NCBI GenBank assembly: GCA_015059735.1
Contig: SUZX01000003.1
Span: 1-64,000 of the forward strand
Length of the DNA stretch: 64,000 bases
Source: Rikenellaceae bacterium
Lineage (GTDB): Bacteria > Bacteroidota > Bacteroidia > Bacteroidales > Rikenellaceae
Direction of reading: 5' to 3'
Shown here piece by piece: positions 17,869 to 20,591 of this stretch (position 1 is its first letter; every line of letters starts with the position of its first letter). The notes under the pieces were generated by a model. That model did no database searches and was not told the origin of the DNA. It saw nothing but the letters and a program-made list of their open reading frames with translations. The position numbers and the translations under genes were made by a program.

Positions 17869-17876
17869 CAAAGATA
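17869..17876 (-). promoter_or_regulatory. Promoter -7 element proximal to the YfhO gene
   Basis: Minus strand TATCTTTG, 22 nt before the ATG at 17847. A second, better-formed promoter lies just upstream in repeat copy A. Confidence 0.55.
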
Positions 17877-17893
17877 CGAAAAATCTGATTATT

Positions 17894-18088
17894 ATATCAC
17901 AAAGGTAACAGACAAATTTCAATTGTCCCAATAGCTCCAAATGCCCCATCTTAGCAGTTGATTTTTAACCTCTTGATTTAGTTTGAATTAGGGTTATTTG
18001 GAATTTTTGAAACTATTAAAAATAGCCCTAACTGGTTGGCGTCCAATTATTAGGAACTTATTTTGTTACTGATAGAACTTTATAAATT
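17894..18088 (-). repeat. Promoter-bearing intergenic repeat, copy A
   Basis: About 195 nt with clear similarity to 20349-20543 in the same orientation. Shared blocks include TATCACAAAGGTAACAGA, TCCCAATAG, TTGATTTAGT, AACTAT(t/c)AAAAA, and TCCAATTATTAGGAA; overall identity by eye is roughly three quarters, with small indels. Read on the minus strand it contains a promoter (TTGG, 20 nt, TACCTTTG at 17900-17931). The two copies bracket the pair of lipoprotein genes at 18344-20328. Confidence 0.75.
17900..17931 (-). promoter_or_regulatory. Promoter within repeat copy A
   Basis: Minus strand TTGG, a 20-nt spacer and TACCTTTG. It points towards the YfhO gene, 53 nt away, and would add a second start upstream of the proximal TATCTTTG element. 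Confidence 0.55.
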
Positions 18089-18154
18089 ATTATCTAATAA
18101 GATTAGGGCTTGATGGTTAAAATTACTAATTTCTTTCTTAATATGCAATAGGTA

Positions 18155-18193
18155 TAAAAAAGCAAGAAGATGTCATTTGGTATCTTCTTGCTT
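18155..18193 (-). terminator. Terminator after the lipoprotein pair
   Basis: A 12-bp perfect inverted repeat, AAGCAAGAAGAT ... ATCTTCTTGCTT, followed on the minus strand by TTTTTT. It closes the unit made of the two lipoprotein genes before the YfhO promoters. Confidence 0.85.
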
Positions 18194-18290
18194 CATTCGG
18201 TTTGGTTGGGATGACCAAATGGGTTATTTCGTAGCCATGCGGTCTACTCCATGACGCCTTCCCTATACTGCTCGCCGCAGGGAGACTTAC

Positions 18291-18325
18291 AGCCAAACTT
18301 CGTAACTCGGTTACGAAGTTTGGCT
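18291..18325. repeat. Perfect 16-bp palindrome after the second lipoprotein gene
   Basis: AGCCAAACTTCGTAAC-tcg-GTTACGAAGTTTGGCT: 16 paired bases around a 3-nt loop, 18 nt after the stop of the gene ending at 18344. It lacks a following T run on either strand, so it is not a standard terminator, and a separate terminator lies at 18155-18193. The adjoining 100 nt (GACGCCTTCCCTATACTGCTCGCCGCAGGG) is richer in G+C than the genes next to it. It may be part of a dispersed intergenic element. Confidence 0.6.
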
Positions 18326-18343
18326 ATGGCATTATCAATCGAG

Positions 18344-19240
18344 CTATTCAAAAATTCCATACTTGTGAAGAGTCCAATCTTGAGATTTTTGTCTTTTGCT
18401 AACAGGTTTGATTATAATCACACTCATCTGCTTATTGCCGATATGAGAACAATTGGTTCTCATGGCAGGTACATATTTGTTGTCAATGCCCAAAGGAATA
18501 CTGCGAACCAAATTGATATACCATTGGGTACACTCTCTGTTCGGACCGTAAAAATCATTTGTTATTTCTAGTGCTCCTAAGAATCCTTTTGTCGCTTTTG
18601 TAGGTTCTCCCTTCATGGTCAGTATCTCCCATTGACCGTCTTTGCATACTACAAAATGGCTGATGGACAAATAGTTGTGGACGTATATGATTCGGTCGTA
18701 TATATCTGGAAAGATTTGTCGATATTTTTTAGACTCGTATAAATCATCCTCATCATAATATAGGCCGCAGTATTTACCGTCAAGCGTATAAAGGAAACAT
18801 CTGTTGTTGCGCAAAAAATTAGCGCATTTTTTTGGAAGCCCATACGTGTTTCTTAATGGATATTTTATGCCTGATTCGGTTTCGGCATACGCATATCCTT
18901 CCTCATCTTTTTTTAGAGTATAGCATTCTTTTTCAAATAAGAACATTTGCGCGTCAGCATTGTATAAATACTCCTTCCCGTTTTCGCTCATAATAAACAT
19001 ATTCTCACTGCCCGAAACTTCATCCAATCCTAACGGTTGAAATGAATCAATCACAAAGTCACTGAGGTAGATTTTGTTATAGGCATCATAAATGGCCCAC
19101 TTCTGCGTGCCTTTGGCACGGCGCATTTCAGTTTTCACCTTACCTGTAAGGTAGTCTTTTTCGACAAGTATTATTTTTTCGAATCTTTGACACGACAGTA
19201 ATAAGCATACGATGCAACCTGCTAATAGGATTTTTTTCAT
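18344..19240 (-). CDS. Lipoprotein of unknown function (WG-repeat-like)
   Basis: I do not recognise a named family. The 298-aa protein starts with a lipoprotein signal (MKKILLAGCIVCLLLSCQ; lipobox LLSC). The body has loosely repeated segments of the form KWAIYDAYNKIYL, GKEYLYNADAQMFL, GKYCGLYYDEDDLY and QWEILTMKGEPTKA, which recall WG-type beta-propeller repeats but are degenerate. It overlaps the preceding gene by 4 nt (ATGA), so the two are surely coexpressed. Base composition is more A+T-rich than the flanking genes, which suggests acquisition from elsewhere. It is probably periplasmic or surface-exposed. Confidence 0.75.
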   Translation of the reverse strand: MKKILLAGCIVCLLLSCQRFEKIILVEKDYLTGKVKTEMRRAKGTQKWAIYDAYNKIYLSDFVIDSFQPLGLDEVSGSENMFIMSENGKEYLYNADAQMFLFEKECYTLKKDEEGYAYAETESGIKYPLRNTYGLPKKCANFLRNNRCFLYTLDGKYCGLYYDEDDLYESKKYRQIFPDIYDRIIYVHNYLSISHFVVCKDGQWEILTMKGEPTKATKGFLGALEITNDFYGPNRECTQWYINLVRSIPLGIDNKYVPAMRTNCSHIGNKQMSVIIIKPVSKRQKSQDWTLHKYGIFE

Positions 19241-20328
19241 AGTGATTCTGTTGTATTGGGATAAACAATAATTCCTGTTAAATAGCCTGACTCCTCTGAT
19301 ATTTTCTTGAATTTGCCATTTTTCCAGATTCCAGGAGCGTATCCGTTATCTCCTGCACAATAGACATCCTCTCCAACAACGGAGATATCAAATACACTCG
19401 CACCGATTTCGCGGAGGGGAACATATTGCCCATTCACCCAGTATGCAGGAGTTTTGAATTTAGATTCTTCATAGTAACCACAGAGATAATAGTTGCCATT
19501 GAATATTCGCGCACTATGAAAGTAACTATTGCCTTGTCTGCCGTCGCTAAGAGCTTTTCGCCATCCGTTCTCCCAATATATATCCTTTTCATCCCCGTCA
19601 TATTCGAAGCTGCTAATCCAACCTGAAATATAAATTTTCTTCCCATCACCAACGATTGTACTTGCATCCGAATAGCGGTGATTATCGAGATCTTGTCGTT
19701 TGCCGTCAATCCAAAAGCAAGCTTTTTTGGTTCGTACCCAAGCATATTGATACCACTCCAACAAGAAGTTGTCGAATCCTACAATATGCACACGATTGTC
19801 GGGATCGATATAGATGCCGTTTGCACAACCTCCTTTCTTGCCATTGGTTAATGTGTATAGTAATTTCCCATTTTTCCAACATTTGGCAACATTGAATCGA
19901 AATAATTTTTCATTTCTCCAGTTTGTGTGCCACGAACCGGTTTGCTCGCATCCTACGCAATAGACATCTGTACCATTTACGGCGATTTGTTGAATTAAAG
20001 CATTGTGCTTTCCGTCAGTCACATAGGTAGGCTCGCCGTTTTTCCAATATACGGCGATCTTGAAATCTGGAGAGTTCCATGTGGTGCCTGCGCAATAAAT
20101 ATCATTGCCAGCCTGTACCATATCGTGAACAGCCGTATTTGCATAGGAGGATTTCAGATAAATTCGCTCACCGGAAGGAGTGGTATAGAATCCTTTGTGC
20201 TCGTCGTTAGAAGGACGTAAGTTTCCGCAAACTACAATAGCGTTCACCTCTTCCTTTTCTTGGTTGCATGAAATAGTAAACAATAGGGCGATTATTGCGA
20301 AAAATCGACACATGGATGGTGGTTTCAT
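19237..20328 (-). CDS. Lipoprotein with about six YWKNG beta-propeller-like repeats
   Basis: A 363-aa lipoprotein (lipobox TISC, MCRFFAIIALLFTISC) of unrecognised family. It has at least six tandem repeats of 40-50 residues with the pattern xYWxNGxxxxL-xxG ... I.V.G.DVYxxG: AVYWKNGEPTYV, AKCWKNGKLLYT, ACFWIDGKRQDL, DIYWENGWRKAL, PAYWVNGQYVPL and PGIWKNGKFKKI, each followed by a strand such as GTDVYCVG, KKIYISG or EDVYCAG. An additional diverged unit precedes them (GNDIYCAG). This is best explained by a six- or seven-bladed propeller. It heads a two-gene unit with its own promoter in repeat copy B. Binding, not catalysis, is the likely role; the partner is unknown. Confidence 0.78.
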   Translation of the reverse strand: MKPPSMCRFFAIIALLFTISCNQEKEEVNAIVVCGNLRPSNDEHKGFYTTPSGERIYLKSSYANTAVHDMVQAGNDIYCAGTTWNSPDFKIAVYWKNGEPTYVTDGKHNALIQQIAVNGTDVYCVGCEQTGSWHTNWRNEKLFRFNVAKCWKNGKLLYTLTNGKKGGCANGIYIDPDNRVHIVGFDNFLLEWYQYAWVRTKKACFWIDGKRQDLDNHRYSDASTIVGDGKKIYISGWISSFEYDGDEKDIYWENGWRKALSDGRQGNSYFHSARIFNGNYYLCGYYEESKFKTPAYWVNGQYVPLREIGASVFDISVVGEDVYCAGDNGYAPGIWKNGKFKKISEESGYLTGIIVYPNTTESL

Positions 20329-20348
20329 AGAGTTATTATTTGATCATC

Positions 20349-20543
20349 ATATCACAAAGGTAACAGAAATTCTCAATTATCCCAATAGTTTCAAATATCC
20401 TATTTTAATAATTATTTTTTAACTTATTGATTTAGTGATAATTATAGCTTCACTTATAACTTTTGTAACTATCAAAAAAGGTCTTAACTGATTGGCATCC
20501 AATTATTAGGAATTTTTCTTATTACTGAAAGAGCATTATAAAT
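20349..20543 (-). repeat. Promoter-bearing intergenic repeat, copy B
   Basis: Second copy of the element at 17894-18088, in direct orientation and about 2.45 kb away, just upstream of the YWKNG-repeat lipoprotein. It keeps the same order of conserved blocks. The copies have diverged by substitutions and short indels, so the duplication is not recent. The remaining sequence up to 20583 shows no gene. Confidence 0.75.
20355..20385 (-). promoter_or_regulatory. Promoter within repeat copy B, for the lipoprotein pair
   Basis: Minus strand TTGG, a 19-nt spacer and TACCTTTG, ending 27 nt before the ATG at 20328. The same boxes are kept in copy A. Confidence 0.65.
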
Positions 20544-20583
20544 AAAATCTCCTACTTACAGAGTGGCTGTTGCGAAATTTTAT

Positions 20584-20591
20584 TATCTTTG
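20584..20591 (+). promoter_or_regulatory. Promoter -7 element of the polyprenyl synthase gene
   Basis: Plus strand TATCTTTG. The ORF-track start at 20589 would lie inside it, so the true start must be downstream, in agreement with the ATG at 20673. No clear -33 box is present. Confidence 0.6.

Follow-up and report, generated by a model that had tools for sequence, protein, structure and literature searches.

A segment of 2664 bp has been inserted precisely into the 59-bp region between the divergent promoters of yfhO and ispB, as shown by comparison of the site with its counterparts in related genomes. The insertion occupies positions 17887..20550 of the window (the whole analyzed stretch of 64,000 nucleotides), with one copy of a 7-bp repeat counted. 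It carries two overlapping lipoprotein genes, both on the minus strand. Gene 1 (19237..20328) encodes a lipoprotein of 363 amino acids with seven kelch-like repeats, a candidate beta-propeller. Gene 2 (18344..19240) encodes an orphan lipoprotein of 298 amino acids and starts within the stop codon of gene 1. The explanation that we favor, with somewhat better than even confidence, is an acquired lipoprotein locus in which the propeller protein of gene 1 would be a stand-alone binder, gene 2 would be accessory, and the terminal repeats would be remnants.

The preliminary description had presented a vague "lipoprotein island": two ATGA-overlapping lipoprotein genes at 18344-20328, richer in A+T than their neighbors and provided with their own promoter and terminator. 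All of this stands: the coordinates, the strand and the overlap are right, and both products have lipobox-like cysteines. What is new is that the insertion is defined to the base and its empty site is measured. The insertion architecture is the moderately surprising aspect of the locus.

Insertion site and terminal repeats

Both flanks of the insert are conserved bacterial genes, yfhO on the minus strand and ispB on the plus strand. They are direct divergent neighbors without such an insert at 23 of 24 loci from the same genus, and the insertion was delimited by this adjacency together with the empty-site comparison. The only exception is genome G004, where other housekeeping genes are found upstream of ispB instead of yfhO. 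The possibility that the yfhO/ispB region is an insertion hotspot was considered and rejected, as nothing of the kind is seen at the 24 loci, G004 having housekeeping genes in this place.

The ancestral -7 boxes, TATCTTTG in both promoters, were identified by promoter alignment at 17869..17876 (yfhO, minus strand) and 20584..20591 (ispB, plus strand), and are conserved in relatives. If positions 17887-20550 are excised and one AAAATCT is kept, the boxes are separated by 59 bp. This coincides with the distance of 58-59 bp between the same boxes in 11 compact relatives; the insertion is precise. The empty-site alignment places the two copies of AAAATCT at 17880..17886 and 20544..20550. It is a good inference that this 7-bp direct repeat is a target-site duplication, the alternative being microhomology.

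The insert is bounded by two direct repeats of approximately 205 bp that match its ends and are read on the minus strand: P' (17883..18087), upstream of yfhO, and P (20338..20543), upstream of gene 1. They are 77% identical and form the only pair of direct repeats of at least 60 bp in the window. Both contain the same Bacteroidota-type promoter with the -7 box TACCTTTG, at 17900-17907 in P' and at 20355-20362 in P. When the repeats are aligned, few stretches are as well conserved as the promoter block. In P, the box lies 27 bp upstream of the start of gene 1, is preceded by TTG 20 nt upstream, and fits the Bacteroides consensus TAnnTTTG (PMC4747536). The P' copy places a second promoter-like -7 box (region 17883-17907) upstream of that of yfhO itself.

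No further copy of the 205-bp repeat was found in this genome, in 150 genomes of the genus, or in phage and plasmid records. The hypothesis of a dispersed element was rejected, since neither the genome nor the 150 relatives contain another copy. A 25-bp match to the flanking repeat in genome G113 lies inside a seemingly unrelated coding gene and is probably due to chance.

The opposite end of the operon contains two hairpins on the minus strand. A perfect 16-bp hairpin (18291..18325) is situated just past gene 2. An intrinsic terminator hairpin (18160..18193) followed by TTTTTTATACC was identified from sequence and folding. The folding z-score of the 3' region is -6.7, and the minus-strand terminator is real and intact.

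Composition and origin of the segment

The GC content of genes 1 and 2 is 41.6% and 37.5%, respectively, compared with a mean of 49.6% (sd 2.6) in the 42 other genes of the window. The GC3 values are 0.396 and 0.398 (z = -4.1 and -4.0), compared with 0.533 in the same 42 genes (sd 0.034, minimum 0.445). Both genes are intact and coding-like only in their own frames. The genes are compositionally foreign, and the 2.66-kb segment is most likely a foreign, acquired one. No donor of the segment was found. A phage or plasmid origin was rejected: there are no protein or DNA matches in phage and plasmid records, nor was any viral contig found.

The tail of the insert (18150..18302, minus strand) is a degenerate copy of a genus repeat trailing tRNA genes, with 69-72% identity over approximately 155 bp to loci adjoining such genes. 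It retains a remnant of the tRNA-Pro 3' end, GGTCATCCCAAC, at 18205-18216; the version in relatives is CAGTCATCCCGAC. In many relatives from the genus the source repeat is located directly behind tRNA-Pro, tRNA-Ser and tRNA-His genes, often in tandem. The tandem units (loci L022, L024, L025, L030, L032 and similar) are approximately 215 bp long; each has a conserved block of approximately 150 bp and, at its end, a fragment of the tRNA 3' terminus plus a terminator hairpin. This resembles the RtT repeats behind tyrT of E. coli, which also are tandem repeats each containing a tRNA 3' end. However, the source of the island tail has a different sequence, belongs to another bacterial group and is associated with several tRNA species. 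The window copy has no match in Rfam. There is no second copy of the tail repeat in this genome, which suggests that a related species was the source of the tail as well as of the insert with which it arrived.

One possible origin of the insert is a mobile unit that is non-autonomous and bounded by long direct repeats. The ends, the 7-bp target duplication and the promoter would then constitute the element, and the two genes would be cargo moved by a recombinase encoded elsewhere. Indeed, the ends are precise, the 7-bp direct repeat is present, the long repeats lie exactly at both ends, and the genes are compositionally foreign. However, the flanking repeat occurs nowhere else in the covered sample (this genome, the 150 genus genomes, phages and plasmids), no recombinase or transposase is encoded in the insert, the two lipoprotein genes being its only open reading frames, and the 23% divergence of the repeat copies means that such a unit would probably be old and stable. 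We consider this origin quite improbable. The chances are slimmer still for an undescribed kind of mobile unit, in which promoter-bearing long direct repeats would enter divergent promoter regions with a 7-bp target duplication, deliver a lipoprotein operon and re-promote the neighbor. If it did exist, such a unit would supply a surface lipoprotein operon and a new promoter for the adjacent gene at once.

In the favored explanation of an acquired locus, the foreign 2.66-kb segment would have entered the 59-bp yfhO/ispB region, as the comparison with relatives indicates, bringing its own Bacteroidota-type promoter, the two overlapping lipoprotein genes and the terminator. The 205-bp repeats would then most simply be left over from a tandem duplication of the promoter together with the genes, with the genes of one copy subsequently lost and a spare promoter left upstream of yfhO. 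The precedent for a tandem duplication is an array of gene 1 relatives with near-identical spacers in genome G499 (see below). The other simple explanation of the repeats is that a circle integrated into a copy that was already resident. In this species, yfhO may have two promoters.

The propeller lipoprotein and its family

The product of gene 1 begins with a signal peptide and a lipobox-like cysteine (IALLFTIS-C21, a pattern-based call). Seven repeat units can be recognized, six of them clear and the seventh, N-terminal, degenerate; they contain six W-x-N/D-G and six xYxxG motifs. The number of self-similar windows is 98, compared with at most 12 in 60 shuffled sequences. The protein matches the family profile A2 over positions 1-348 of 349 with E 4.6e-84, although gene 1 itself is a row of this profile; an independent single-protein search reaches members of the family with E 2.6e-8.

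The A2 profile, in turn, matches solved kelch propellers, in particular the designed protein SAKe6FR (E 5.4e-6) and Keap1 (E 7e-4). The similarity to kelch propellers (PF01344/PF13964; Keap1; SAKe6) extends over approximately 150-200 residues, with E-values down to 5e-6; being obtained with the family profile, it is indirect for gene 1 and applies at the level of the superfold, not of a functional family. Gene 1 alone is far below the Pfam cut-off for Kelch_6 (10.6 bits, the cut-off being 25.3). The SBBP lipoproteins (PF06739; LipL53, NF047494) also are lipid-anchored repeat propellers, and one member of the gene 1 family matches them with E 0.003, whereas gene 1 itself scores 8.7 bits at the cut-off of 20.5. 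AlphaFold2 runs without an alignment yielded pLDDT of 41, for gene 1, and 39; these single-sequence models are unusable, and thus the predicted fold of gene 1 rests on the repeats and the profile. The two together agree with the preliminary reading of gene 1 as a beta-propeller of at least six repeats, and a seven-bladed kelch-like propeller is well supported at the family level.

No curated family in Pfam or NCBIfam, enzyme families included, matches gene 1 above the cut-off. Gene 1 adds a new member to an ordinary, though uncurated, kind of protein. The initial statement that neither gene matches a known family thus holds as regards curated libraries; gene 1, however, has a family of its own, which is uncurated and distributed throughout the order. 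The literature yielded nothing on either this family of propellers or pairs of WG and propeller lipoproteins.

The family consists of proteins of approximately 340 amino acids, mostly lipid-anchored, with a consensus of seven YxAG...WKNG units. Its distribution is patchy: members occur in 20 of the 180 genus genomes and in 20 of the 393 that represent the order, this one included in both cases. In 12 genus relatives the family members adjoin rpsL. These members (loci L128-L138, L145) are propeller lipoprotein genes divergent to rpsL at a conserved site. Gene 1 resembles the W-x-N-G propeller lipoproteins of the order in length, lipid anchor, the seven repeats and the full-length profile match. 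It differs from them in being only 17-27% identical, in residing on an acquired insert, in preceding a second lipoprotein gene and in not being adjacent to rpsL. In genome G499 (C72, locus L110, 4520-9055) four family genes with near-identical signal peptides and spacers form a tandem array. This array is a recent expansion of the family.

The optimal characterized signal of surface export after the lipidated cysteine is C-X-K-(D/E)2-X, the position being critical (PMC5080379). The sequence NQEKEE following Cys21 of gene 1 is polar and acidic, but is off the optimal C-X-K-(D/E)2-X register (PMC5080379). In gene 2, the cysteine is followed by QRFEK, without an acidic pair. The export signals used in this comparison were C-X-K-(D/E)2-X and S-D-D-D-D of B. 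fragilis. Judging from these residues, surface exposure of the gene 1 product is plausible.

Several surface lipoproteins of Bacteroidota with propeller folds are glycan-active. Gene 1 could by analogy encode an enzyme, for instance a glycan-cleaving propeller, rather than a binder, and at least one homolog carries an additional N-terminal domain, DUF4988. However, no enzyme family from Pfam or NCBIfam is matched above the cut-off, and the invariant columns of the family are mainly glycines, tyrosines and tryptophans of the repeat frame and not a catalytic set. An enzymatic role is thus very unlikely. Under the favored explanation, the protein would be exported by the Sec pathway, lipidated at Cys21 and, as predicted from the repeats and the profile, closed into a seven-bladed kelch-like propeller. 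It would most likely reside on the outer membrane, where a face of the propeller may bind a ligand, either a glycan or a protein. It would act as a stand-alone binding lipoprotein, similar to its unpaired homologs.

The second gene and the question of pairing

The TGA stop codon of gene 1 (19237-19239) overlaps the ATG start codon of gene 2 (19238-19240), forming ATGA. Gene 2 also encodes a signal peptide with a lipobox-like cysteine, C17. It has no internal repeats (0 self-similar windows). No relatives of gene 2 were found in 180 genomes of the genus or in 396 genomes of the phylum, nor in searches of the GTDB collection and of viral, phage and plasmid sequences, where the GTDB and viral scans would reveal only near relatives and each species is represented in the genome sample by a single genome, so that strain-level relatives could escape. 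A match in genome G735 has E 0.005 in the set of 396 genomes, which is at the level of chance, and the protein looks unrelated.

Gene 2 had been described as WG-repeat-like. By eye, it contains a few KWxIxD-like stretches similar to those of the WG beta-repeat proteins (PF14903). However, these repeats have no statistical support: gene 2 has no Pfam match, PF14903 is absent genome-wide, and the score of a small local WG profile is lower than that of at least 339 of 500 shuffled sequences. The assignment failed all three tests and was rejected. In the genus and the order such proteins are frequent, being encoded in 21 of 31 sampled genomes; the search yielded none here.

The two genes had been suggested to form a paired secreted binding system. 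In the strong form of this suggestion, they encode a dedicated two-protein system, forming one complex and inherited together. The ATGA overlap, the common promoter and terminator, and the lipoprotein nature of both products conform to it. However, when the loci of the gene 1 family were inspected for co-occurrence of the pair, no gene-2-like neighbor was found at any of the 17 extended loci or at approximately 20 loci of the genus, and gene 2 has no counterpart in the 180 genomes of the genus, the 396 of the phylum, or the phage and plasmid records. The homologs of gene 1 are unpaired at all inspected loci, which is the outcome that the preliminary description itself had named as a refutation, and gene 2 has no detectable homologs; thus the paired system is not supported, and its strong form is distinctly unlikely. 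As sampled, genes 1 and 2 occur together only in this genome. Here they are likely to be co-transcribed, and a local partnership is possible. In the acquired locus, gene 2 would be a co-translated accessory lipoprotein, as the observed lipobox and overlap suggest.

It is also conceivable, if unlikely, that both genes are selfish or neutral imports with no function in the host. Within the sample they were found in one species, there are no relatives of gene 2, and the composition is foreign. On the other hand, neither reading frame is broken and both look coding-like, P' and P share a well conserved promoter, and the terminator is intact.

The eye-catching pairing is private to one genome, as far as sampled. 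The family of gene 1, by contrast, is stand-alone, patchy, tandemly expandable and without a model in Pfam or NCBIfam, and it is a plausible uncurated set of surface binding proteins of Bacteroidota.
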